Source: Phycisphaerales bacterium (GTDB taxonomy: Bacteria > Planctomycetota > Phycisphaerae > Phycisphaerales > UBA1924). Taken from it: a DNA stretch of 64,000 bases. Shown here in pieces: positions 28,544-55,559 of this stretch. The notes under the pieces are model-generated. The model had not been told where the DNA came from and made no database searches. It saw only the letters and a program-made list of their open reading frames with translations. The DNA lies in NCBI GenBank assembly GCA_905339235.1, contig CAJPFG010000003.1:186001-250000 (forward strand). The letters run 5' to 3'. The translations under genes were made by a program, and so were the position numbers. The number at the start of each line of letters is the position of its first letter. Position 1 is the stretch's first letter.

Positions 28544-31000
28544 TCAACGAGAGTGGCGTAATCGGAGACTATTAAGCACGACGCTCACACTACTAAACGC
28601 CATCGCCGCGCTCGCGATGATCGGCGAGAGCAGCCAGCCCGTGAAAGGGAACAGCACGCCCGCCGCGATGGGGATGCCGACGACGTTGTAGATGAACGCC
28701 CAGAAGAGGTTCTGCCTGATTGTGCGCATGGTGGCGTGCGACAGCGCAATAGCCTGGGGAACGGCCCGGAGGTCGCCGCGCATGAGCGTGATGTCGGCGG
28801 ACTCCATCGCCACGTCCGTGCCTGTTCCGACCGCGAGGCCCACGTCGGCCTGGGCGAGCGCCGGGGCATCATTGATGCCGTCGCCGACCATTCCCACGAT
28901 GTGACCCTCGGCTTGGAGAGCCTTGACCTTGTCCGCCTTGTCCTTGGGCAGGACCTCGGCGAAGACCACATCGACGCCCACTTGCGAGCCGACCGCCTCG
29001 GCCGTCCGTTGGTTGTCGCCGGTCATCATGACCACACGCAGCCCGAGAGCGTGCATGGTGGCGATGGCCTCCTTCGACTCGGGCCGCACCGTGTCGGCGA
29101 CCGCAACGATCCCGGCTTCGCGCCCGTCCACGGCGACGAAAATGGGCGTGCGCCCCATCGCCGCCAAGCCCGCGGCCCTCTCCGCCAGCGTGGAGCGGAT
29201 GCCGCGCTGCTCAAGCAACGCCGCCTTGCCGACCAATACGCCGCGGCCATCCACCGTGGCCTCGATCCCATGCCCGACCACGGCCTGGAAGCCGGTCGGC
29301 TCGGTGAGGGGCAGCCCGCGTGCCGTGGCCTCACGCACGATCGCCGCGGCGAGCGGGTGCTCGCTGTACCGCTCGGCCGATGCGGACAGCCGGAGCAGCT
29401 CGCGTTCATCGAGTGGACCCCCGGGTGCCGGGATGACGTCGGTTACGGCGGGCTTGCCGTGCGTGATGGTGCCTGTCTTGTCGAGCACGATGACGGTCAG
29501 CTTGTGGGCGGTCTCCAGGGCCTCGCCGCCCTTGATCAGGATGCCCTTTTCCGCGCCGCGCCCGGTTCCCACCATGATCGCCGTTGGCGTAGCGAGCCCC
29601 AGGGCGCACGGGCACGCGATGATGAGCACGGAGACGGCCGTGACCAACGCCATACTCAGCCGAGAATCCACCGGCGAGACAAACCACCAGACCACGAAAG
29701 TTACGAGGGCGATCGCGATGACGATGGGCACAAACACGCCGCTGATCCTGTCGGCCAGGCGGGCGATCGGGGCCTTGCTCCCCTGGGCCTCTTGCACGAG
29801 CCGCACGATCTGCTGGAGGGCCGAGTCGGCCCCGACCTTGGTCGCCACCAGCCGCAGGGCGCCGGTCGTGTTCATCGTCGCTCCAAGGACGCTGTCACCG
29901 GCCGCCTTCTCGACCGGCACGCTCTCGCCGGTGAGCATCGACTCGTCCACCGCGGACTGGCCGCTCTCGACACTCCCGTCTACAGGTATCTTCTCGCCGG
30001 GGCGCACCAGCACGCGGTCACCCACGACGACGGTTTCAATGGGCACGTCCTGTTCGGTGCCATTCCGCAGAACGCGAGCCGTCCTGGCCTGCATCCCGAT
30101 GAGCCGCTTGATAGCGGCACTCGTCCGCCCTGTCGCCCGGGCCTCGAAGTACTTGCCCAACAGGATCAGCACGATGATGATGGCCGCGGCCTCGTAGTAC
30201 ACGGGCACCATCGCCATGCCGTCCATCGTCCCCGCCGCGTGCGCCGTCTTCGCTACGGCCCCGCCGACACCCGCAAAGAAGCTGGGCCAGATCGTCGCTG
30301 CGAGCGAGTAGAGGTACGCCGCGCCGGTCCCCATCGCCACCAGCGTGTCCATGTTGGCGCTGAAGTGCCGAAGGCCTTTCCACGCGGAGCGGAAGAACTG
30401 CCAGCCGCACCAGAACATCACCGGCGTCGTCAAGACGAGCTGGAGCCAGTTGATCCAGGGAACGTTCAGTGCCTCGATCTTGCCGTGCGACATGGCGATG
30501 ACCAGCACCGGCAGCGACAACGCCGCGCCGACGATTGTCTTGGTGAGCAGCCGCCGCGTCTCCGCCTCCCCGACATGCATGTGCGCCGAATGGTCCTCGC
30601 CGCCGCTCACAGAATGCTCAGCGTGCGCGCCAGTTCCCTGCGCCGCGAGCATCGCCGCATGGTCGTGACCAGCCTGCCCATGGGCGGGATTCACCGCTGC
30701 GTGTTTGGCTCCAGCCGCCGGGGGCACGATCGCCTTGTACCCGATGTCGTCCACGGCCTTGGCAAGCGCCGCCGGCCCCGTTGTCGCTGGATCGTACTTC
30801 ACGGTCGCCACCTTGGTGGCGAAGTTCACGTTCGCCGACGACACCCCCGGCTGTTTCGCCAGTCGCCTTTCGACGCGGCTCGCGCACGAAGCGCACGTCA
30901 TCCCTTCGATCGGCAGGTCGGCCCGCTCGCTGGCTGGCGGTGCTTCCGCATTGTGCATCGAGTCGCCCGCGTGGTTGTTGTGGTGATCGTGGTTACTCAA
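28544..31000 (-). CDS. copA: Cu(I)-exporting P1B-type ATPase
   Basis: An 818-residue inner-membrane pump that exports cytoplasmic copper at ATP cost. The N terminus is His-rich ([11 protein letters not shown]), followed by one HMA domain with [15 protein letters not shown] (residues ~33-100) and a second His-rich linker. The membrane core has [20 protein letters not shown] (CPC motif), the phosphorylation site [26 protein letters not shown], and near the C terminus [14 protein letters not shown]. These match Cu(I) rather than Zn or Cd pumps. It is the last gene of the copZ-csoR-TM-CDF-copA run, under a probable CsoR operator. Confidence 0.96.
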
Positions 31001-34132: not shown

Positions 34133-35593
34133 TCACCTCGGCTGGTGCTGCTGGTGGGGATTCGGGGGGGATGTGGGCGGCGGCGGTGGAGCGGCCTCCG
34201 CCGCCGACGGGTTGGCGGCAGGCAACGGAACGTCCGGGAGGCGCGTGCCGACGGCGACCTCGAGGTCCGACCGGGCGGTCCAGTACTCCTGGAGCGCCCG
34301 CGCGAAGCCGGTCTCGGCCGTGGTGAGCTCGGACTTCGTAGTCAGGAGTTCGAAGACTCCAACGAACATCGAGTTGTACCGGTCCTGCACGGCGGCGAGC
34401 GTGGCCCGTCGCAGAGGCAGGATCTCGTCGCGGTAAAGCACCACGACCTCGCGTGCCGCCGAGACACGCTGCAGCGCGGTGCGGACCTCCGTGCGGGCCT
34501 GCCCCTGCAGCGCGGTGCGCCGCCGCTGCACCTGGCGGATCACCGCCTCCTGGCGGGCGATCTCGCCCTGGCGCTGGTTGAAGATCGGGAGCTCAGCCGA
34601 GAAGTGCGGGCCGGTGGTGTACTGCCCGTCGGTGCTCTCTTCCGTCTCCACGCCGACCTGTACGGTCGAGAGCCACCACTTCTTGCTCAGCTCGAGGGCG
34701 TATTCCTGCCTCTGCACCTCCGCGTCGGCCGCCTTCACGTCAAGCCTGGAGCCGAGCGCAAGGGCGAGCAGTTCGTCCTCGCCCGGTTCGCCGCTGGTCG
34801 GTCCGGGCGCCTCGCGCACGAGCATCCAAGCCACTGGCCGGTCGGTCAGGCCCATGAGGGCTCGCAGCCGTTCCAGACTTGCCCGCTCCGCAGATCGGGC
34901 CTGAAGGAGCGAGAGTGTTGCCTGTTGGTACGCGCTGCGGTCCGCGGCGACGCGCAGGTCGTCCGCGTTTCCGGAGGCGCCCTGCGCCCGCGAGAGGTCG
35001 AGCGCCAACCGCGCGACCTCCGCCAGGCTCTCTTGTGCGCGCACCGCCGCGGAGTCCGCCTGCAACGCGAAGTACGCGGCGCGGGTGTCGGCGGCCAGGC
35101 GCACGACCTGCTGTGTGACGAGCCGCAGCGTCTGGTCCTCTGAGGCATTCGCGAGCCGCTGGCGGACCGGCACGAGGAAGGCGTCCAGAAGCCACGCGTC
35201 GATCCCGATGTTCCAGTTGAGACCGCTCGGGGGCGAGCTGGGGAATCGGAAGAACCCGGCAATATCGGGATTGCGGAGCTGCCCGGCGGTCACGACCTCC
35301 GCCTGGGCGATGCCGAGGTCCTCGAACGTGGCCTGCAGGCCGGCGTTGTTGAACAGCGCGACTTGAACGGCGTCGTCGGCGCTGAGCGGCTGCCCGAGCA
35401 GCGCCGCGATCCGCTGGTCCACCAGGTCGTCCGCCGCTGTCCCCTGTCGCCACTCGACGCGGCCGCCGACGCGTGCCAACGTGTCGGCCTGAACCTCCGG
35501 GAAGCGTTGGTCAGGAGTCACCGATGCGCACCCGCCAACGCCGGCGGCGATGAGGAACGCGAGTGCGATGGCTTTGGATCGTGTGGTTCTCAT
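34133..35593 (-). CDS. TolC-family outer-membrane efflux lipoprotein
   Basis: A 486-residue protein. The signal IALAFLIAAGVGGCASVTPD contains a lipobox Cys. The body has the two repeated long-helix blocks of outer-membrane efflux proteins (AEVVTAGQLRNPDIAGFFRF; KSELTTAETGFARALQEYWT). The Pro-rich tail ends NPHQQHQPR. It forms the outer-membrane channel of an RND or ABC pump. A second TolC gene is present in the island, so this one may serve a different pump. Confidence 0.9.
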   Translation of the reverse strand: MRTTRSKAIALAFLIAAGVGGCASVTPDQRFPEVQADTLARVGGRVEWRQGTAADDLVDQRIAALLGQPLSADDAVQVALFNNAGLQATFEDLGIAQAEVVTAGQLRNPDIAGFFRFPSSPPSGLNWNIGIDAWLLDAFLVPVRQRLANASEDQTLRLVTQQVVRLAADTRAAYFALQADSAAVRAQESLAEVARLALDLSRAQGASGNADDLRVAADRSAYQQATLSLLQARSAERASLERLRALMGLTDRPVAWMLVREAPGPTSGEPGEDELLALALGSRLDVKAADAEVQRQEYALELSKKWWLSTVQVGVETEESTDGQYTTGPHFSAELPIFNQRQGEIARQEAVIRQVQRRRTALQGQARTEVRTALQRVSAAREVVVLYRDEILPLRRATLAAVQDRYNSMFVGVFELLTTKSELTTAETGFARALQEYWTARSDLEVAVGTRLPDVPLPAANPSAAEAAPPPPPTSPPNPHQQHQPR

Positions 35594-35614: not shown

Positions 35615-36433
35615 TCAGTGGTGCTTGTACCAGCCGACTCCCTTGATGTCGTTCCACGAGTTGGTCTTGTGGCACAGGAAGCACTGGCTTACCTCTGCGT
35701 GCTCGATGCCCGCCACTTTCATCGAGACCATGTGGAAGTGCTCCATGTAGTGGCTCGGGGGCGCCTGATGGCACTGGGCGCAGTCGGTCGAGAGCGAGGA
35801 GGGGTGGCGGAATTCAGGGATCGTCCACCCGCCCCCCCCTCCCCCCCAACCCTGCACCACGCCCGTGGCGTGGCAGGACGCGCAGTTGGTCCCCATGAGG
35901 CCGCGGTGCGGGTCCTGGTTCGCGTGGCAGGCGTTGCAGTCGAGCGTGAGCTCGCGGGCGGCGATCCGTGGATGGGGAGGCGTCGCGTTCGATGCCTTGG
36001 CGATCGCCTCGAGGATCTGCTCCGGCGTGCCAGCGCGGGCTGGGGCCGTGCGCGCCGCCGCGTCGACCAGCGCGTTGTGGACCATCGCCACAGGTCGGTG
36101 CTCGTGGCCGAGGTGCTCGACGTGGCACCCCGTGCACGCGCCGATGTCGGCGTGGAAGCGGGTGCTCTGCTTGGCCAGAAGACCCTCCGCCGCGCCCCCG
36201 CTCGCGTGGCAGGCTATGCACTTGTCGGCGGTCGGACCTTTGTGCGGGGTGTGGCATGACTCGCACCGGGACGAGAGGAACTCGTGCTTGGCCGAGAGCG
36301 GACCGGGGTTGACAAAGTCGGCCCAGCCGGGAGCGGCGGCCGTGCCCCCGCGGTGCGAGACAAACGGCAGTGCCGCGGCGGCCCCGAGCGCCCCGACCAT
36401 CACGACCGCGTAGATGATCTCGAGTTTCTTCAT
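35615..36433 (-). CDS. Seven-haem membrane-anchored cytochrome c
   Basis: About 272 residues. One N-terminal helix (IIYAVVMVGALGAAAALPFV) anchors it to the membrane with the haem part periplasmic. Seven CxxCH sites are seen: CESCH, CIACH, CTGCH, CNACH, CASCH, CAQCH, CFLCH. Extra His residues could be distal ligands. It resembles NapC/NrfH- and cytochrome c7-type electron carriers but I cannot assign a closer family. Its start overlaps the stop of the b-type membrane gene by 4 nt, which implies a complex. Confidence 0.92.
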   Translation of the reverse strand: MKKLEIIYAVVMVGALGAAAALPFVSHRGGTAAAPGWADFVNPGPLSAKHEFLSSRCESCHTPHKGPTADKCIACHASGGAAEGLLAKQSTRFHADIGACTGCHVEHLGHEHRPVAMVHNALVDAAARTAPARAGTPEQILEAIAKASNATPPHPRIAARELTLDCNACHANQDPHRGLMGTNCASCHATGVVQGWGGGGGGWTIPEFRHPSSLSTDCAQCHQAPPSHYMEHFHMVSMKVAGIEHAEVSQCFLCHKTNSWNDIKGVGWYKHH

Positions 36434-37176
36434 GGGAGCCACCGGATTCCGAAGTACCAGGCCGACCAGATGTGCATGGCCAGCAGCGCATAGAGGATGA
36501 TGGCGATCACGATGTGGCACGCGAGCCAGCGACCGAACATGCCCTTGATTAGCTCATGAGACTTGATGGCGTACTCGACGTCCGCGATCGACTCCGACAA
36601 CTTGAACGCACGCGCCGGTGCCGTTAGCTCGGCTTGACGAACGAAGAACGGCGCGGCGAGGCGTGAAAAGAAGCCCGCGAAGGGCTTCAGACGCGCGGCC
36701 TTGTCGGGCTCCTTGATCAACTCGCCCGCGGTGCGCTCGTAGGCAACGCGCAGCCCCGCGAGCAGTTGCTGCCGGTCACGCATGCCCATCGACATCCGGG
36801 CCATGAGGTACCGGCCCACGAAGCCGCTCAGAGCCACGATCAGCATCACCGCGGTCAAGGCGATTCCCAGCGGGCTCTCGAACCGGTGGCCGCTGTGGAG
36901 CACCCCGAGGATCGGGGCGAGCACGCCCGCGTAGATGTGGATGGCCAGGAGAGTCCGCATCGACACGCCGTGCGTAACACGCTTCTTGAGGAAGGGCACA
37001 CGCTTGACGACCAGGTAGGCCAGCGGCACGAGCATGAGGGCCGCCGCCGAGATCCCCAGCACGCCGCCCGCAAGGCTGCCCGGGAACCTCGGGTCGCGGT
37101 GGACGTAGAATCCGAGCACCAAGACCACCAGGAGCAGGACGAGGCCGGTCACGATGGCACGTTCGCGTTCCTGCAT
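36430..37176 (-). CDS. Membrane cytochrome b-like protein
   Basis: A 248-residue protein with about five hydrophobic helices. Four His residues lie in or beside helices: LAIHIYAGVLAPI, VLHSGHRFE, LACHIVIAIIL and LLAMHIWSAWY. This is the spacing expected for one or two bis-His b-haems. A ~90-residue soluble loop lies between helices four and five. It sits between the flavin/2Fe-2S reductase gene and the seven-haem cytochrome gene, with 3 nt and -4 nt spacing. A transmembrane electron conduit role is inference. Confidence 0.75.
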   Translation of the reverse strand: MQERERAIVTGLVLLLVVLVLGFYVHRDPRFPGSLAGGVLGISAAALMLVPLAYLVVKRVPFLKKRVTHGVSMRTLLAIHIYAGVLAPILGVLHSGHRFESPLGIALTAVMLIVALSGFVGRYLMARMSMGMRDRQQLLAGLRVAYERTAGELIKEPDKAARLKPFAGFFSRLAAPFFVRQAELTAPARAFKLSESIADVEYAIKSHELIKGMFGRWLACHIVIAIILYALLAMHIWSAWYFGIRWLP

Positions 37177-37179
37177 GCT

Positions 37180-39036
37180 TCAGGCCTCCACCTCGATGTT
37201 GGTCTTGGACTTGGCCTGACAGGCGAGGATGATCCCCTGAGTCTTCTCCTCGGCCGACAGCGCATCCTCAACGGCCATTGTCACCGCACCCTTGAGGAGC
37301 CTCACCTTGCACAGGCCGCAGGTGCCCGCACGGCAGGAGTTGTCGATGGAGACGCCGACGTGCTCCGCGGCCTCGAGCACCGAGGTATCCGGCGGGAGCG
37401 GCGCCGCCTTCTGCGAGATGGAGAATGACACGACCGGCGTGGTCTCGGCGGGGGCCTCGACCATCGCGGTCTGCACCGCGGATCGGCGAGCTTCCTTCTT
37501 CTCGGCAGGGCCGAACGCCTCGGTCCAGACCTGCTCGGGCTTCACGCCGAGCTCGGCCAGCATCACCCTCGTTGCGTCCATCATGGCCGACGGGCCGCAG
37601 ACGTGGATGCGCCGCGTCGGGAGATCTGGAACGGACTGGGCGATCAACTCCTTGGTCAGCCGTCCCTTGGGCCCCATCCACACCGTCCCGTCGCTGCGCG
37701 TCATCGTGGCCACGACGTGAAGGTTGTGGTGCCGCTTCTGGAGGCGTTCGAGCTCGTCGCGGAACACGAAGTCCTCGGAGGTTCGGCACGCGAAGAGCAG
37801 GAACATATCCTTGTTCCACCCGCGGTCGGTGAGGGAGCGGATGATGCACATCAGCGGCGTGATGCCCACGCCCGCCCCGATGAGCACGATGCTCTCGGCC
37901 TCCGACCCCGAGAATGTAAACCGCCCCTGCGGAGCGGAGATCTGCAGCAGATCACCGGGCGCCACACGGTCGTGGAGGTACCTCGACACCACGCCCTGCT
38001 CTTCGCGCTTGACGGTGATCTCCACGTAGTCGCGCTGAGCGGCTGACGAGGCGATCGTGTAGGAGCGCTTGGTGGTCGTTCCCGCCAACGCGACCGCGAG
38101 CGTGAGGAACTGCCCGGGAACGAACGAGAACGGAATCGATCCTCCGGTGGGGTTCACCAGCCGGAGTGTCTTGATGGCGGGCGTCTCTACAAAGACGTTG
38201 GAGACCCGCAGCGATCCGCTCCAAGGCCTGATCGCCGTCGCTGGCGCTTGGGCGATCGCTTGAGGCGCTGCCGCTGTTACGGCCGGCGTTGCGACTACCT
38301 TCGGGGCAGGAGCGACCACCGCGCCCGCGGGCGGTTCCGTGAGACGCCGCAGAAGCGAACTGGCCCGCCGCATCTTCACGAAGTACATGCCGATCACTGC
38401 AAGGCCGAACCCGGCGAGCAGCACCATGATCACCCAGTGGCCCAGCGACCATCCGAGCCAGCCATGCCGCTCTTGGGGTTGCGGTTCAGGAAGGTCCATC
38501 TGCCGCTTGAACCACTGAAGCCCGACCTGCTGGGGCGGCAGACCCTCCGCGATCGCCCGATGGGTGCTCAGCCCGCTGTCGAACCGGGCCGCACCCTCGC
38601 GCAGGCGATTCAGTGCATCCTGCATCGCGGCGTAGTCATTGAGCCCCGCTCGGGTGAGCAAGATGTCCATCGCCTCGCCCATCATCTTGGTGCCGGACTC
38701 CATCCGCTCGTGGGCGGCTCGCTGCAGTTCATCCTTCTGCTCGGGCGTGAGCGACGGCAGTTCCATCAGGCGCGGGTAGAGCTCCTTTGGCGGCACGCGG
38801 AGCATCCCCTCCATCATGCCTTCCATGCCCGCCATGCCGCCCGGGGACGTGGCGGAAGTACTCCCGGGCTGCTGCGCGCCTGCGCCCTGTGGGTGGTGCT
38901 TGGCGTGCTCCTCGGGAGAGACCTGCGCGCTCAGTGGCGAACCCATCACGCTTAGGCCCACCGCAACGATGGCGCGTGTGACGAACAGCCATCGCGGTTT
39001 CGGCGAGAACAGTCCCACGGAGAAGGGTTCAAGCAT
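37180..39036 (-). CDS. Membrane-bound FAD/NAD(P) reductase with 2Fe-2S ferredoxin domain
   Basis: A 618-residue fusion. Order: signal/anchor (1-38), a Met-rich helical segment with LTPEQKDELQRAAHERM (40-190, Spy/CpxP-like), one membrane helix (GHWVIMVLLAGFGLAVIGMY, ~205-225), FAD-binding barrel (KRSYTIASSA), NAD(P) domain (GAGVGITPLMCIIRSL), then a plant-type [2Fe-2S] domain with CRAGTCGLCKVRL and a later Cys near ILACQ. It probably moves electrons from NAD(P)H to the neighbouring b-type protein. A periplasmic metal-sensing-like head joined to a cytoplasmic reductase is unusual. Confidence 0.85.
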   Translation of the reverse strand: MLEPFSVGLFSPKPRWLFVTRAIVAVGLSVMGSPLSAQVSPEEHAKHHPQGAGAQQPGSTSATSPGGMAGMEGMMEGMLRVPPKELYPRLMELPSLTPEQKDELQRAAHERMESGTKMMGEAMDILLTRAGLNDYAAMQDALNRLREGAARFDSGLSTHRAIAEGLPPQQVGLQWFKRQMDLPEPQPQERHGWLGWSLGHWVIMVLLAGFGLAVIGMYFVKMRRASSLLRRLTEPPAGAVVAPAPKVVATPAVTAAAPQAIAQAPATAIRPWSGSLRVSNVFVETPAIKTLRLVNPTGGSIPFSFVPGQFLTLAVALAGTTTKRSYTIASSAAQRDYVEITVKREEQGVVSRYLHDRVAPGDLLQISAPQGRFTFSGSEAESIVLIGAGVGITPLMCIIRSLTDRGWNKDMFLLFACRTSEDFVFRDELERLQKRHHNLHVVATMTRSDGTVWMGPKGRLTKELIAQSVPDLPTRRIHVCGPSAMMDATRVMLAELGVKPEQVWTEAFGPAEKKEARRSAVQTAMVEAPAETTPVVSFSISQKAAPLPPDTSVLEAAEHVGVSIDNSCRAGTCGLCKVRLLKGAVTMAVEDALSAEEKTQGIILACQAKSKTNIEVEA

Positions 39037-39881: not shown

Positions 39882-40931
39882 TCACATGTCTCCCATCCCT
39901 CCGGCTCCGCCGCCCATGCCCGGCATCGCACCGGGTTGATTGGCGGGCGCCGGATTGGCGGGCACCATGCCGGTAAGCTGCTTGCGCTGGTCGTCGGTGA
40001 GCACGGCGGCGGCCTTGCCCACGTCGCGGATGAACGAGATGCGTTGCTCGCTCTTGAGCTGCTCGATCTCGCGGGCCTTTGCCTCGACCTTCGCGGCGTC
40101 GGGCGCGTCGGCGCCGGTCAGGTCCCAGAGCTCCTGTTCGGCCTGATCGATCTTGCGCTGCAGCGTCGCCTGGTTGAGCAGGGACTGTTCCTTGATCTCG
40201 CCGAGCTGCTTCTGCTGCTCAACGGTGAGCGTGACGTGCGAGCCGTGGTCGAGGAAGAAGCCCGTGGCCCCGAGGTGGTAGATGTGGGAAGCGCCAGGGA
40301 ATCCGGGGAGGGCCGACGCCATCCCGCCCGTGTTCATGCCGCCTCCCATGCGCGACATGCCCATCCCCATCATCTGATCCATCATGCCCATCATGCCGGA
40401 CATGCCGCCGCCCGAGCCACCGCCCATACCACCCATCATCATCTTGTCCATGTCCATCATGCCCATCCCGCCCCCGCCGGACATGCCTGGCATGGACGAA
40501 CTGCCGCTCGGCATGCCCTGCATGGCACCGCCGCCCTGCGGCATCGCGCCTCCACCCATGCCCTTCATTCCCATGCCCGGCCCCCCCGACCCCATCTGAG
40601 GCCGTCCCATCTGCATGCCGGGCTGCATGCCGCCCTGGGGCATCGGCTGCGGTGCCCCCCCGGAGGCGTGCCCCTGGGCCAAGGCAGCCTGGAGCTGCGC
40701 GATCTGCGCACGGAGTTCCGCGAGTTGCCGCACCAGTTCGGCGTTGTCGGCCGGCTGAGCAGCCGTCTGGGGGTGGGCCCCCGCTCCCTGCGCCACGTGG
40801 GCGGCGTGGATTGCCGGATCGACCCCGGGCGGGGGCTGAGACCCGGCCGGGGCCTGCGGCTGCGCGAACGCGAACGAGCTGAGGACGGTGCCGGCGACAA
40901 GCGCCACGATCGACATGCGAGAACGGTTCAT
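39882..40931 (-). CDS. Secreted Met/Gly-rich Spy-like protein
   Basis: A 349-residue protein with a Sec signal (SIVALVAGTVLSSFAFAQ). Residues ~75-215 are extremely Met/Gly-rich, with repeats such as GMGMMDMDKMMMGGMGGG, a likely Cu(I)/Ag(I)-binding sink. The rest is helical with LTVEQQKQLGEIKEQSLLNQ and LTDDQRKQLTGM, the LTxxQ motif of Spy/CpxP periplasmic chaperones. It probably binds copper in the periplasm. Its ATG overlaps the stop of the previous gene by 4 nt. Confidence 0.85.
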   Translation of the reverse strand: MNRSRMSIVALVAGTVLSSFAFAQPQAPAGSQPPPGVDPAIHAAHVAQGAGAHPQTAAQPADNAELVRQLAELRAQIAQLQAALAQGHASGGAPQPMPQGGMQPGMQMGRPQMGSGGPGMGMKGMGGGAMPQGGGAMQGMPSGSSSMPGMSGGGGMGMMDMDKMMMGGMGGGSGGGMSGMMGMMDQMMGMGMSRMGGGMNTGGMASALPGFPGASHIYHLGATGFFLDHGSHVTLTVEQQKQLGEIKEQSLLNQATLQRKIDQAEQELWDLTGADAPDAAKVEAKAREIEQLKSEQRISFIRDVGKAAAVLTDDQRKQLTGMVPANPAPANQPGAMPGMGGGAGGMGDM

Positions 40932-41593
40932 GAGCGATCTCCTTTTGCAGGTGCGGGACTCGAGGACGAAGACGGAGCGCGACGCCCGCGCTCAGCTTTT
41001 TCCAATGTCAACAGGAAACTCAGGCCCGGGTCCTTCGACTCCGAGGCCTGCAATCGCGGCCAATGACGGCGCACATAGCCGCGCAGGTAGTCCAGGACCG
41101 ATCCGAGCAGAATGACCTGGAAGCGGCGGGAGGGTGCCTCCGGGGGCAGTGAGCCAAACGCAACCAGTCGCACGCGATGGCCGGCAGGGGTGCGTGCATG
41201 CCCTTCGCGCACCAGCCGATGCGCGAGCTCCACGGCCACAGTCGGCTCGCAGCAGCCGAAGCGCGTGAGCGCTGCCGCGAGCACCCCGGGGTCGGATGCC
41301 GCGCGGTTCAGCACCGCCCGCCCCTCCTTCACCTCACCGACAATCATGTCCGGCGTTCCCGCCCGAACATCAAGCGCCGGGTCCGTCTCGATCTCGCACG
41401 CCGCGTCCGCTCCGTCCGAGCCGATCGGTGCGCGCAGTGTGCAGGAATGTCCGAATCGAAAGCCCAGCACGTCCAGATCGGTGGCCGCCTGATACCCACC
41501 GGCCGGAAGCGCCTCAACGACCGGGTACTCGGTGACGGTCAGGTAGCCGTTGACCCGCAGGTATGTCTGCACCAACGCAACAGCGTTATCCAT
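40928..41593 (-). CDS. Hypothetical protein with possible PD-(D/E)xK nuclease fold
   Basis: About 221 residues from the ATG at 41593. MDNAVALVQTYLRVNGYLTV is followed by TDLDVLGFRFG and later PDMIVGEVKEGRAVLN, a D...ExK spacing like PD-(D/E)xK nucleases. The C-terminal ~30 residues are Ser/Pro/basic. No copper link is evident. It overlaps the Met-rich gene by 4 nt. Nuclease activity is a motif-level guess. Confidence 0.6.
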   Translation of the reverse strand: MDNAVALVQTYLRVNGYLTVTEYPVVEALPAGGYQAATDLDVLGFRFGHSCTLRAPIGSDGADAACEIETDPALDVRAGTPDMIVGEVKEGRAVLNRAASDPGVLAAALTRFGCCEPTVAVELAHRLVREGHARTPAGHRVRLVAFGSLPPEAPSRRFQVILLGSVLDYLRGYVRRHWPRLQASESKDPGLSFLLTLEKAERGRRAPSSSSSPAPAKGDRS

Positions 41594-41668
41594 GATCGCC
41601 ACCTCCCTTCGGGCCATCGAGGCGGCCGGTCGAGGACTGAGTGGCGCCCGATCCTTGAAATGGTCCGT

Positions 41669-43087
41669 TCATAGTGAAGGCCCCTGAGCGCCGCTTGCTT
41701 TGGCTGGCTCCGGAGCGGCCAGCCGACCTCCGACCGCCTCCTCAAGCGCAACGCGAGCGAGCCGCGCATCGCGCTCCAAATCGTTCAGTGTGCGCCGAGC
41801 CTCGATCACTTCGCGCTGCGCGTCCAGCAGCACCGTTACGTCCGCCTGTCCTGCCTTGAGGGCAGCCTCTGCAAGCGTCAGATTGTGCTCGGAGAGCGCC
41901 AGCACGGTGGTGCGGTACTGCTCGAGGAGCCGCGCGGCACTGTCAAGTTCGATCCACGCCACTCGGGCTTCGCGGACGGCCCGCTGCGCGACGGCCTCGT
42001 GCGTGGCCAGGGCCGCCCGTGCCATCGACCCGGCCTTGGCGATCTGAGCCTCGTTGGTGTCGAAGATTGGGATCGCCAACTCGACCACCGGACCGATGGA
42101 CTTGTCGCCCGACTCCGACCGCTCGAAGTCGGCACCGAGGCCCAAGTCCCGCAGGCGGCTCCGCTGCTCGACCGAGAGGTCCGCGCTCAGGGCGAGCGCA
42201 ACCGACCGCGACGCCGCGACATCCAGCCGCTGCGACCCCGCCAGAGCGATCACGGTGGCCTCATCGAGCGTCTGCGGCGCAGACACCAACGCGCCTTCAT
42301 CGACGGCCCAGTCCGCGTTCTCTGCCGCAAAGCCGATCAGCTCGAGCATCCGGCGGCGCTCTTTGGCCAGCTCTCGCATGACCACAACCCGCTCGGCATC
42401 GGCCTTGGCCAGCTGCTGACGGGCGCGGTTGACGTCCAGCGTCGTCCCCTCGCCGCCTCGCACTCGGGCGTCGAGGGAATTGATCGACTTCTGGATGGTC
42501 GCGAGGTTCTGTTCTGCTAGCGCGACCGCACGCTGACCAAAGGCGATGCGCGTATGCAAGGCCTTCACCTCCGCGACCAGCGCGAGGGCCTTGTCAGATA
42601 CGTCCAGCACGGTCTGGTTGAGCCTCGCATCAGCTGCCCGGATCTTTCCTCCCCGGAGCCAGAGGGCCGTAAAGGACTGGACAAGCTGCGCCCCGACAAA
42701 CGTGCCACCGCTCACAGGGTCGAAGGGGAATCGCAGCGTGAGCCCGACGACGGGGTTGGGCAACAGTCCCGCCTGCACAAGGTCTGCCCGTGAGGCCGCG
42801 ATCAGTTCAACCTCCGATCTGATGTCGCGGTTGTTCCTGAGCGCCATCCCCAGGGCCAACTCAACCGTGAGGGGCGAGCGTCCGTCCCACGTTGTCAGCG
42901 ACGCCTCCCAGGGACCATCCCATCCGGGCGCAACGCCCGATCGGTCGGTGACCGTGTGCGCGGCGCGGTCGATGTCCGCCTTCGGATCGAGCGAGGCGCA
43001 TCCGCCCGCGAGCACCGCGAGCGCCAGCGCGACCGGGGCCATCGGGCGGGTGAAGTGAGGTGGGCACTTGAAGCGTTGGAACATCAT
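41669..43087 (-). CDS. TolC-family outer-membrane efflux lipoprotein (second copy)
   Basis: About 472 residues from MMFQRFKCPPHF. The signal APVALALAVLAGGCASLDPK has a lipobox Cys. The OEP blocks are visible: NNRDIRSEVELIAASRADLV and EHNLTLAEAALKAGQADVTV. It is the more likely partner of CusA/CusB because the metal-binding genes between them belong to the same run, but pairing is inferred from location only. Confidence 0.88.
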   Translation of the reverse strand: MMFQRFKCPPHFTRPMAPVALALAVLAGGCASLDPKADIDRAAHTVTDRSGVAPGWDGPWEASLTTWDGRSPLTVELALGMALRNNRDIRSEVELIAASRADLVQAGLLPNPVVGLTLRFPFDPVSGGTFVGAQLVQSFTALWLRGGKIRAADARLNQTVLDVSDKALALVAEVKALHTRIAFGQRAVALAEQNLATIQKSINSLDARVRGGEGTTLDVNRARQQLAKADAERVVVMRELAKERRRMLELIGFAAENADWAVDEGALVSAPQTLDEATVIALAGSQRLDVAASRSVALALSADLSVEQRSRLRDLGLGADFERSESGDKSIGPVVELAIPIFDTNEAQIAKAGSMARAALATHEAVAQRAVREARVAWIELDSAARLLEQYRTTVLALSEHNLTLAEAALKAGQADVTVLLDAQREVIEARRTLNDLERDARLARVALEEAVGGRLAAPEPAKASGAQGPSL

Positions 43088-43150
43088 GCGGGCAGTCTCC
43101 ACGGTCGAATCAGCCCGCGCAACTCTTGCAGCGCGGGACTAGGTGGGTTC

Positions 43151-52419: not shown

Positions 52420-54008
52420 GCTGCCTCCTCATCTTCAGCGGGCGACTGGCCGAGCGTCCGCAGCCCCGCAGGATGGAGTGTGATCGATACCGTCTTCTTC
52501 GCGCCGTCGTAATCCACCCGCTTGACCAGGTTCGCCAGCATCGCCGCCTGTTCACGCGGGTAGAGCACGTCCCACGTCGCCGCGAACTCGCGGAGCGCCT
52601 CCGCGACTTCGGCCTGGGTGATCGACTCGCTCTGCATCTGGTCCCTCTCGGCGCGAAGAGCCCGCGCCTGCTCGTTGGCCGCGGCGAGGCGTTCGTGAAG
52701 GTCGGCCAGACGGGCGGCGGCGTTGGCGTCCGTGCCGGCCGTCATCGCGGCCTTGCGGATGTCGCCCTCAATCTTCTGGATCTCGCGCTTGCTCGCAGTG
52801 TGGTCCTTCTCGATCTGGGCGCTCCGAGAGCGGACGCCGCTCTGCAACTGGCGGAATGTGGCGGCGACCAGCGTGGCGTCGCCGCCTATGTGTTTGATCC
52901 GGTCGACCACCAGCCGCTCGATCTGTTCCGCGGGCAGCGAACCCGACGGGCACGCGTGCCAGCCCTGCTTCTGGGCGACGTAGCACACGTAGTAGCGGTA
53001 GGCCGCCTTTCCGTCCTTGACGCTGTAGGAGTGGCCCATCGCGTGCCCGCACGGGCCGCAGTGGATCAGACCCTTGAGCAGCGCCCCGTGCTGGTTGCGG
53101 ACGTGCATGCCGCCGGTGCGACCGTTGTGCTTGATGATTCCGTACACCTGCTGCCAGAGCGGTTCGTCGATGATGGCGGCGTGCTCGCCGGCGAACAGTT
53201 CCTTCTTGTGCTTGATCTTGCCAACGTAGGCCGGGTTGGTGAGCAAGTTGATCAGCAGGTGTTTGTCCCACACGCGGCCGCCGACCGCCGTGCCCTTGCG
53301 GGTCGTCCATCGCTTGCTCGTACAGCCGCGGGCGTTGAGGATCTGGGCCACTTTGGTGAGCGAGCGGTGCTCCAGGTACAGTTGGTAGATTTCGCGGACG
53401 ACCTCCGCCTCCGCCGCGTTGACCACGAGTTTGCTTCCGCCAGCGGGCTGGGGCGCGAGGTCGTACCCCAGGATCGGCTTGCCGCCGAACCACTTGCCCT
53501 TTCGCTTGGAGGCGGCGATCTTGTCGCGGGTGCGCTCGGAGATGATCTCTCGCTCGAACTGCGCGAACGAGAGCAGGATGTTCAGCGTGAGCCGCCCCAT
53601 CGATTGCGTGGTGTTGAATTGCTGCGTCACCGACACGAACGAAACGCGGTGCTTCTCAAACACCGACATCATCCGGGCGAAGTCCATCAAGGAACGCGAG
53701 AGACGGTCCACCTTGTAGACCACCACGCAGTTCACCTTGCCGGCCTCGATGTCGGCCATCAGCCGCTGGCAGCCCGGACGGTCGGTGTTCCCGCCGGTGA
53801 AGCCGCCGTCGTTGTACTGGTCGGGCAGCGCGACCCAGCCCTCGTGCTTCATGCTGGCGACGTAGGCCTCGCCGCTCTCGCGCTGGGCGTGCAGCGAGTT
53901 GAACTCCTGCTCGAGTCCCTGCTCGCTCGACTTACGGGTGTAGATAGCGCAGCGGACGGTCGCCACGCCGACGTTCTTCGCGGGTTTGGTTTCGACCGAG
54001 GTCCTCAT
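52416..54008 (-). CDS. Large serine recombinase (resolvase/invertase family)
   Basis: About 530 residues from the ATG at 54008 (MRTSVETKPAKN). The resolvase domain has RCAIYTRKSSEQGLEQEFNS with the nucleophilic Ser, then VVYKVDRLSRSLMDFARMM and FAQFEREIISERTRDKIAAS. A recombinase domain (~190-290) and a zinc-ribbon motif CGPCGHAMGHSY with a following CYVAQKQGWHAC lead to a coiled coil (AARLADLHERLAAANEQARA). It integrates or excises DNA by a 2-bp staggered cut. It is coupled by 4-nt overlaps to DUF2924 and the HTH gene. Confidence 0.94.
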   Translation of the reverse strand: MRTSVETKPAKNVGVATVRCAIYTRKSSEQGLEQEFNSLHAQRESGEAYVASMKHEGWVALPDQYNDGGFTGGNTDRPGCQRLMADIEAGKVNCVVVYKVDRLSRSLMDFARMMSVFEKHRVSFVSVTQQFNTTQSMGRLTLNILLSFAQFEREIISERTRDKIAASKRKGKWFGGKPILGYDLAPQPAGGSKLVVNAAEAEVVREIYQLYLEHRSLTKVAQILNARGCTSKRWTTRKGTAVGGRVWDKHLLINLLTNPAYVGKIKHKKELFAGEHAAIIDEPLWQQVYGIIKHNGRTGGMHVRNQHGALLKGLIHCGPCGHAMGHSYSVKDGKAAYRYYVCYVAQKQGWHACPSGSLPAEQIERLVVDRIKHIGGDATLVAATFRQLQSGVRSRSAQIEKDHTASKREIQKIEGDIRKAAMTAGTDANAAARLADLHERLAAANEQARALRAERDQMQSESITQAEVAEALREFAATWDVLYPREQAAMLANLVKRVDYDGAKKTVSITLHPAGLRTLGQSPAEDEEAA

Positions 54009-54526
54009 GCCTTGCCCTCCGTGATGCCGGGCTTGCAGAGCCCGAAGAATCGGAATCCGTTCCAATGCGAACCGGTCACCTTCGCCGCGATGGCGCTGAG
54101 CGACCGGAAGACCTCGCCCTCGTACTCGAACCCCTTGGGCAGCACCCGGACCAGCACGGCTCGGCCCTTGTACTGGCGTCGGAGCACCGACCCGGGCGCG
54201 GGTAGGCGTGCGTCATCGCCCGCGGGGAGGGCAACGCGGACCACGCTCTCGCCGTTGGCCCGCGGCGTCGGCCCGTCCGACGCTGACACGCGTGGCGGGC
54301 TTCGCCGCAGATCGGCGTCGTTGGCCAGTTCGCGTGCCCGCTGGCGTGCCCGCTCCGAGAGGTCCCCCTCCCGTAGCGCCTGCATCCGCCAGAGAATCCG
54401 TTTGATGAGCAGCACCTTGTGGTGCGTCCGCGTTTCTTCGCCGTAGACTTTGGCGTACCGCTGCTTCAGTTGCGGCACGGTCATCATCTCCAAGGCCCGC
54501 TCGGCTGCATTCACATCGATCGCCAT
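54005..54526 (-). CDS. DUF2924 protein, recombinase-associated
   Basis: A 173-residue protein. TVPQLKQRYAKVYGEETRTH and LIKRILWRMQALREGDLSER open the domain; LPAPGSVLRRQYKGRAVLVR, GFEYEGEVFRSLSAIAAKVT and GSHWNGFRFFGL close it. This order is the DUF2924 signature, almost always beside large serine recombinases. The gene starts a coupled cassette. Role unknown; possibly a recombination partner. Confidence 0.9.
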   Translation of the reverse strand: MAIDVNAAERALEMMTVPQLKQRYAKVYGEETRTHHKVLLIKRILWRMQALREGDLSERARQRARELANDADLRRSPPRVSASDGPTPRANGESVVRVALPAGDDARLPAPGSVLRRQYKGRAVLVRVLPKGFEYEGEVFRSLSAIAAKVTGSHWNGFRFFGLCKPGITEGKA

Positions 54527-55175: not shown

Positions 55176-55182
55176 CTCAGAA

Positions 55183-55254
55183 CTCCCCCACTAGGACTCG
55201 AACCTAGAACCTACCGGTTAACAGCCGGTCGCTCTACCATTGAGCTATGGAGGA
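55183..55254 (-). tRNA. tRNA-Asn (anticodon GTT)
   Basis: A 72-nt cloverleaf: acceptor TCCTCCA/TGGGGGA, D arm AGCTCAATGGTAGAGC, anticodon stem ACCGG/CCGGT with loop CTGTTAA giving anticodon GTT, and T arm CTAGG-TTCGAGT-CCTAG. CCA is not encoded. The recombinase cassette lies on its 3' side, the usual side of integration. Confidence 0.97.
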
Positions 55255-55559
55255 ATCGCACGCGTCGGGGCCGTTTCTGGCCGCGGGGCGTTTGGGGGCG
55301 GGACGGGCTGGTCCCGGGTGAGAAGGCTAGCCGGTACCCTTTATCGGTCAAGCGGGCGGGTGGGTGAAGTTCGGTTGTCGGGACCACCTGGCACTGGCGG
55401 CGGTTGGGCCGCGGCCAGCGTCGGGCCTCCGGCTTCGGCCGCGGCTTTCAGGCTTTCGGCCCTGGCGAATACCGACGATCACCACGACGGATTGAGGGGG
55501 GCGAGGTCGGGGGCTATCATCCCAGCCCGTTCCGTGCCGAACGGGCCCAGAGGTGCTCC
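55255..55559. other. 305-nt intergenic region before rpmE
   Basis: Divergent leader between tRNA-Asn and rpmE. It contains GC-rich inverted words (GGCCGCGG, CGGCCGCG), but I see no clear promoter, riboswitch or open frame with family similarity. Confidence 0.4.

Follow-up and report, generated by a model that had tools for sequence, protein, structure and literature searches.

A predicted split NAD(P)H : heptahaem cytochrome c oxidoreductase associated with bacterial copper islands

Introduction

Proteins of the NOX/ferric reductase type (NOX and FRE, including SpNOX and NOX5) combine a binding domain of the FNR type for flavin adenine dinucleotide (FAD) and reduced nicotinamide adenine dinucleotide (phosphate) (NAD(P)H) with two HX13H-type histidine pairs in transmembrane (TM) helices 3 and 5, and carry both the membrane part and the flavin part on a single polypeptide. 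In this study, we analyzed a set of three adjacent genes, hereafter the trio, that encodes a reductase, a predicted bis-haem b membrane protein and a seven-haem cytochrome c. The trio lies on the minus strand of a 64 kb stretch of DNA from a Phycisphaerales bacterium (assembly GCA_905339235.1, contig CAJPFG010000003.1, positions 186,001 to 250,000), which served as the reference and is referred to as the window. We found the trio to be a real and conserved electron-export unit that is associated with copper islands and apparently has no name. On balance, we favor the reading in which it forms a transmembrane NAD(P)H : heptahaem-c oxidoreductase of these islands, split over separate proteins and most likely setting the redox state of periplasmic copper.

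The trio has the FNR-type domain and the two histidine pairs in common with NOX/ferric reductases, whereas separate genes encode its membrane and flavin parts, in the window as in 78 of the 80 loci compared. It further differs in that its reductase also carries a plant-type 2Fe-2S domain and a predicted periplasmic domain rich in Met and His, its partner is a seven-haem c, and there is no PF01794 match. The loci were the best 80 of 265 relatives obtained in a scan with the membrane-protein alignment, one genome per species; some are near-copies (L038/L039, L059/L060 and the Legionella rows), and all counts are of loci, not of independent events.

He et al. (2017, PMC5566968) ascribe five TM helices, SGXXG and a pair of WX3HX13H motifs to the PCC3/PCC4 inner-membrane proteins, whose likeness to the ferric reductase domain they note. 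Compared by this published description only, the trio membrane protein resembles them in its five TM helices, SGXXG in TM4, HX13H in TM3 and TM5 and multihaem c partners. The two are similar but not identical: WX3HX13H occurs on both TM3 and TM5 in PCC3/PCC4 and at TM5 only in the window protein. The trio also encodes an NAD(P)H reductase where He et al. propose the quinone pool, comes without a porin or extracellular cytochrome, and stands in a copper-island context. No porin family was matched among the window proteins scanned; beside the trio, we found one seven-haem c and a TolC-family protein. The trio would act as a NOX/ferric reductase does, with a cytochrome wire attached, and we assign it to neither the NOX/ferric reductase nor the PCC3/PCC4 family.

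In the Alteromonas [NiFe] hydrogenase cluster, orf1 and cyt are treated as possible hydrogenase accessory genes (PMC3102683, in part); judging from gene order, they probably correspond to the trio membrane protein and the seven-haem c. The reductase and the copper link do not appear in the excerpts of that account.

The Cop/Pco/Cus systems and Spy/CpxP/ZraP-type proteins are frequent neighbors of the trio, as multicopper oxidase (MCO), CopB, CopA-like ATPase, CusAB, CsoR and Met-rich periplasmic proteins. To our knowledge, these systems include no NAD(P)H reductase and no chain of b and c haems. The preliminary description of this DNA knew of no named system with the gene order of the trio, and we likewise found none in the open-access literature searched.

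Organization of the trio in the window

The trio and the N-terminal part of its reductase are located as follows:

37180..39036, minus strand: reductase gene, 618 amino acids, Pfam PF00970, PF00175 and PF00111
38332..38931, minus strand: Met/His-rich N-terminal domain and TM helix of the reductase, from the alignment of HxxHH-bearing reductases and the AlphaFold2 model
36430..37176, minus strand: predicted bis-haem b membrane protein, 248 amino acids, five predicted TM helices, H80/H94/H221/H235, SGFVG at 117-121 and W217-x3-H221
35615..36433, minus strand: seven-haem cytochrome c, 272 amino acids, seven CXXCH, PF14522/PF14537, hydrophobic segment at the N-terminus, C-terminal end rich in Met and His

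A 3-nucleotide gap follows the stop codon of the reductase, and the membrane protein and cytochrome c genes overlap by 4 nucleotides, as the preliminary description had it. Its four histidines of the membrane protein were found to be paired as H80-x13-H94 in TM3 and H221-x13-H235 in TM5, and its seven-haem cytochrome has exactly seven CXXCH motifs. Two of its statements required correction. The FAD, NAD(P) and 2Fe-2S domains of the reductase were confirmed by Pfam, but the protein has a hydrophobic signal/TM segment in addition to its one membrane helix. The MCO is indeed encoded downstream, but as the second gene, with a TolC-family gene (34133-35593) intervening. The proposed chain from NAD(P)H to the periplasm is supported by the domains, the spacing of the histidine pairs, the predicted topology and strict co-conservation.

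Conserved candidate ligands and predicted topology of the membrane protein

The residues H26, H80, H94, H97, H221 and H235, which include both HX13H pairs, were invariant in 81/81 aligned rows, and SGXXG was present in 79 of them. The spacing in H80-x13-H94 and H221-x13-H235 is that of the bis-haem-b pairs in NOX/ferric reductases and in the PCC3/PCC4 inner-membrane proteins, and haem binding would be expected from the invariant ligands. The inner haem would be held by H80/H221 and the outer haem by H94/H235, and H26 and H97 would lie on the outer side.

Lys and Arg are distributed unevenly over the loops. Their mean number was 6.2 in the 17 residues of loop 2-3, which points to the cytosolic side, and 1.6 in 15 residues of loop 1-2, 1.0 in 10 residues of loop 3-4 and 1.0 in 12 residues of the C-terminus, which are predicted to be periplasmic. 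This distribution places the reductase side and the haem-c side in the right compartments. An AlphaFold2 model of the membrane protein had a mean predicted local distance difference test score (pLDDT) of 82.7 and a predicted template modelling score (pTM) of 0.71 (53 rows). Sequence searches of the PDB with the membrane protein and with the cytochrome each gave 0 matches.

In 15 loci (L047, L049, L055, L062, L063, L065, L073, L078, L080, L081, L085, L086, L094, L098 and L103), the membrane protein continues at its predicted periplasmic C-terminus into a domain of the DUF547 type; Pfam confirmed DUF547 in L080 only (E 1.6e-15), and the other 14 were judged by eye from frame length and common sequence.

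Conserved features of the cytochrome and the reductase

An alignment of 85 cytochromes (the window, 79 loci and five plasmids) showed exactly seven CXXCH motifs and seven further invariant histidines in every sequence. This pattern fits bis-His ligation of every haem, and the heptahaem cytochrome may thus act as a wire and not as an open-site enzyme. Its C-terminal part carried HxMxHFxM in 73 of the 85 sequences and ended in His in 77, and this end is plausibly a metal or partner contact. In six of the 15 DUF547-type loci, HxMxHFxM was replaced by a more Met-rich form.

The reductase begins with the signal/TM segment, which is followed by approximately 150 Met/His-rich residues predicted to be periplasmic, a TM helix and the cytosolic FAD/NAD(P)/plant-type 2Fe-2S part. 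The predicted Met/His-rich periplasmic domain is newly noticed here and was absent from the first account. HxxHH was found near the N-terminus in 71/79 reductases; the alignment of this domain was built only from reductases with HxxHH and is uninformative on the frequency of the motif. In the Met/Gly-rich N-terminal linker, Met made up 13.1% of residues (mean of the 48 reductases in which it could be delimited), compared with 2.7% in the reductase core. The AlphaFold2 model of the N-terminal part is a helical hairpin with a TM helix (mean pLDDT 81.4, pTM 0.52). It had no informative structural match; the rows listed did not include Spy, CnrX or ZraP, which are not thereby excluded. In the core, the plant-type 2Fe-2S (Fer2) Cys pattern was present in 79/79 reductases, RxY[ST] in 77/79 and GxG[IV][TA]P in 75/79.

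Recurrence and mobility of the trio

A search for recurrence had been set beforehand as the refuting test ("trio never recurs"), and it found the trio in nearly all of the 80 loci. In 78 loci, the reductase gene immediately preceded that of the membrane protein, with a spacing from a 4-nucleotide overlap to a 169-nucleotide gap; the exceptions were L099, in which none was seen, and L110, which lies at a contig edge. The seven-haem c followed within approximately 0.2 kb or less in 62 of the 80 loci; of the remaining 18, 17 had it at a distance of up to 1.6 kb. In L062, the contig end cuts the cytochrome, with three haem motifs visible. The extra domain of the membrane protein was present in 15 of the 18 loci without a directly adjoining cytochrome, and a transposase-like frame (L084) or another gene (L082) preceded the cytochrome in two further loci.

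Two simpler accounts of the trio were ruled out. Chance adjacency does not fit the presence of the reductase in 78/80 loci and of the seven-haem c in 79/80. Restriction to one phylum is excluded by the 77 placeable rows of 81, which fall into 11 phyla according to the submitters' titles.

The pairwise distances of the three proteins correlated with r values of 0.80, 0.73 and 0.68 (76 rows), and 0/1000 permutations were as high. The three proteins may form one complex.

The membrane protein was found on 52 of 72,556 plasmid records, 26 of the 52 being typed as conjugative. Among 12 plasmid loci tested, the reductase motifs were present upstream in 11; L030 fails the motif test, yet an FAD/NAD(P) oxidoreductase is annotated there. 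The seven-haem c lay downstream in 11/12, the Roseomonas plasmid showing only four motifs in one frame. Matches were detected in 5/293 other Planctomycetota genomes (E<=1e-20) and strong ones (E<=4.3e-90) in 7/60 relatives; the nearest named relatives are Phycisphaerales metagenome-assembled genomes (L033, 92% identity, among the best 80 of 265). The membrane-protein tree requires 14 phylum changes against a minimum of 10, a weak signal for horizontal transfer. Judging from the plasmids, a recombinase gene in the window and the patchy presence, the trio looks like accessory, mobile content.

A second electron-export-like cluster is present in the host genome (G000:C10:203320-212011, corresponding to L024:7321-16012). 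It holds a distant paralogue of the membrane protein (27% identity, E 1.4e-5), in which a frame of 808 amino acids contains 4Fe-4S and pyridine-nucleotide oxidoreductase domains and then a bis-haem-type membrane domain with both WX3HX13H motifs; frames with 23 and 34 CXXCH motifs come after it. Flavoprotein, bis-haem membrane domain and multihaem c are thus found in two different builds in the host genome.

Mobility and this second cluster bear on an alternative in which the trio is a respiratory or extracellular electron-transfer module akin to PCC3/PCC4 and the copper genes are mere co-travelers on mobile islands. The plasmids and the recombinase do indicate mobility, the host cluster pairs a fused flavoprotein/membrane domain with many-haem frames, and the five TM helices, SGXXG and HX13H pairs are those given for PCC3/PCC4 in the excerpts of the published account. 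However, the trio unit has no porin plus extracellular cytochrome, its haem number is fixed at seven, its reductase bears a Met/His-rich domain, and the copper association is seen in several unrelated plasmid hosts. We consider this alternative unlikely.

Association with copper genes

The stored flanking DNA amounted to 1.41 Mb over the 80 loci, with 49 loci longer than 20 kb and 31 of 20 kb or less. Neighbors were identified with a panel built from window and plasmid proteins, which favors near relatives. By this panel, a strong copper-type marker (a copper-type ATPase, MCO, CusA or CopB) was present in 51/80 loci and a Spy/heavy-metal-sensor-like open reading frame (ORF) in 55/80. A separate hidden Markov model (HMM) found an MCO-like ORF in the flank of 40/80 loci, and unsupervised clustering also gave 40/80 among the clusters listed; among the 49 longer loci, the HMM found it in 30 and the panel in 23. 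As a background, 87 MCO-domain matches were counted in 120.6 Mb of 23 host genomes, hand-chosen from the 80 loci. At this rate of 0.72 per Mb, approximately 1.0 match would be expected in all 1.41 Mb of flank. The trio is enriched near copper genes.

Of the 52 plasmid records, 12 were viewed over a longer neighborhood, and nine of these had copper genes beside the trio. The trio is also present on a plasmid of Sphingobium sp. SYK-6 and on pAM1A3 of A. macleodii HOT1A3, a plasmid that PMC4781885 associates with resistance to copper, zinc and mercury; the strain is reported to tolerate these metals where other A. macleodii strains are inhibited, and the excerpts of that account do not name the trio genes. 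Near the plasmid trios L031, L032, L123 and L127, we observed dehydrogenases that are annotated as type II GAPDH, AdhP, or aldehyde or succinate-semialdehyde dehydrogenase and could be a source of NAD(P)H. A ccm cytochrome c maturation operon, from ccmA to ccmI, with ccmI cut by the end of the stretch viewed, lies just downstream of the trio on a Methylophaga plasmid (L027:14751-20753).

The frequency of MCO genes raises the alternative that the trio feeds the oxidase, with electrons passing from NAD(P)H through the seven-haem c and the MCO to O2, which would remove O2 or keep the MCO turning over. An MCO-like ORF in half of the flanks and in 30 of the 49 longer ones, its position two genes from the trio in the window, and an MCO domain somewhere in all 23 of the hand-chosen host genomes are in line with this. 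Against it, no MCO-like ORF was found within approximately 10 kb in the other 19 longer loci, and where one is present, its distance, strand and subtype vary. Feeding an oxidase encoded nearby is therefore no general requirement, and this alternative appears improbable.

The copper island of the window

The preliminary description placed the trio inside a copper island, and P-type ATPase, CsoR, CopZ-like, MCO, CusAB and TolC-family genes were indeed found around it:

28544..31000, minus strand: HMA-domain heavy-metal P-type ATPase (CopA-like), PF00122 and PF00403
31913..32368, minus strand: CsoR-type metal-sensing repressor, PF02583
32369..32701, minus strand: CopZ-like HMA-domain protein, PF00403
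32795..34126, minus strand: MCO of 443 amino acids, PF07732 and PF07731
34133..35593, minus strand: TolC-family outer membrane efflux protein, PF02321
39496-39885: AMPK1_CBM/CBM48 glycogen-binding-like protein, inside the copper island
39882..40931, minus strand: Spy/CpxP-like (LTXXQ) Met-rich protein, upstream of the trio, PF07813 at E 3.2e-4, below the curated cut-off
41669..43102, minus strand: second TolC-family outer membrane efflux protein, PF02321
46094..49462, minus strand: CusA-like RND permease, PF00873
49505..50902, minus strand: CusB-like membrane-fusion protein, PF16576
52416-54065: serine recombinase, beyond CusB
54005-54526: DUF2924 protein, beyond CusB
55182-55255: tRNA-Asn gene, beside the recombinase and DUF2924 genes

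The island also holds a cation-efflux protein and a heavy-metal-binding-domain protein. The glycogen-binding-like protein was found near the trio in 25/80 loci by the panel. An island protein of 229 amino acids (40928-41617) had no Pfam match, and its homologues occurred near the trio in 9/80 loci. In the host genome of 4.55 Mb, MCO matches were found at two places only, and there were seven P-type ATPase matches. The recombinase and DUF2924 genes next to tRNA-Asn at the island edge mark a possible integration site, and the copper-gene region around the trio may be a mobile island.

Proposed electron path and its weighing

Taken as an electron path, the trio would pass electrons from cytosolic NAD(P)H to FAD, the 2Fe-2S domain and the inner b haem (H80/H221), and from there through the outer b haem (H94/H235) to the bis-His seven-haem cytochrome c with its Met and His end. 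We regard this path as highly probable. A copper-related role of the trio is likely, and Cu(II) reduction as its exact job, with copper as the terminal acceptor, is a tentative assignment that falls somewhat short of an even chance. Under copper stress, the trio would supply reducing power to the periplasm and keep copper as Cu(I), which would then be handled by Met-rich carriers and Cus-type efflux, and the MCO would be the opposing, oxidizing arm. It is possible, though we hold it with less than even confidence, that the trio represents an unnamed plasmid-mobile branch of copper resistance in which cytosolic NAD(P)H is spent via a split NOX-like pair and a heptahaem wire on setting the redox state of periplasmic copper, with gating by a Met/His-rich, copper-binding domain of the reductase and with the MCO in opposition.

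Several points weigh against the reading of the trio as a copper-linked split oxidoreductase. The window membrane protein matched no Pfam family at E<=0.01, and hence not PF01794. Its loop 4-5 is long (approximately 95 residues) and, with 13.9 Lys and Arg and a net charge of +2.4, only mildly basic; the topology therefore rests mainly on loop 2-3, and loop 4-5 is assigned its side by alternation. Foldseek gave no match at E<=0.001 for the membrane-protein model, nor for the other predicted model. In a VIA-align comparison, the membrane-protein model matched SpNOX, cytochrome b6f, hydrogenase-1 cytochrome b, b561, Dcytb and NOX5 with Z-scores of 7.8-9.8, but unrelated helical bundles scored similarly, and the fold comparison is not decisive. 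SpNOX (Z 9.6, root mean square deviation (rmsd) 3.5, 121 aligned residues) and NOX5 (Z 7.8, rmsd 3.6, 126 aligned) are both below the caution level of the tool for helical bundles. The fold likeness to bis-haem proteins is thus suggestive, not proof. The co-variation of distances among the three proteins is in part shared descent.

On the copper side, 29/80 loci have no strong copper-type marker in the stored flank by the panel (with 31/80 loci being 20 kb or less), and the ATPase and RND panel matches are not necessarily copper-specific. In 19/49 longer loci, the HMM found no MCO-like ORF. No copper gene was found at three of the 12 plasmid loci, those of L. anisa, Pontibacter and Methylocystis, and the Alteromonas copies adjoin the [NiFe] hydrogenase as well as copC/copD. 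Finally, toxicity can increase when Cu(II) is reduced to Cu(I), and a resistance island that holds a reductase therefore requires a sink coupled to it.

The hydrogenase neighborhood also bears on inward flow, in which a periplasmic donor, such as the Alteromonas hydrogenase, would reduce the cytochrome c and the chain would make NAD(P)H. Bis-haem chains can run reversibly, and hydrogenase genes do adjoin the Alteromonas copies of the trio. Copper or iron donors are nevertheless too oxidizing to reduce NAD(P)+ unless energy is supplied, and a probe for the hydrogenase small subunit detected none in 80/80 loci. Moreover, the excerpts of PMC3102683 report that hydrogenase activity in E. coli reached its maximum without the Alteromonas Cyt and Orf1, which are equated with trio proteins from gene order. 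Inward flow is thus very unlikely, and outward transfer from NAD(P)H to the periplasm is retained as the preferred reading.

Implications

Bacterial copper resistance is commonly described as export, binding and oxidation. If the reading of the trio as an oxidoreductase of copper islands is true, copper defense would gain a fourth arm, in which a mobile and conserved line powered by NAD(P)H carries electrons to the periplasm, and it would be joined to electron export. By its motifs, the membrane protein would provide the PCC3/PCC4 inner-membrane proteins, which are themselves unexplained, with a relative linked to NAD(P)H. The small size of the trio, its strictly conserved candidate ligands and its presence on plasmids of culturable genera (Sphingobium and Alteromonas) make its proposed function in copper defense directly testable.

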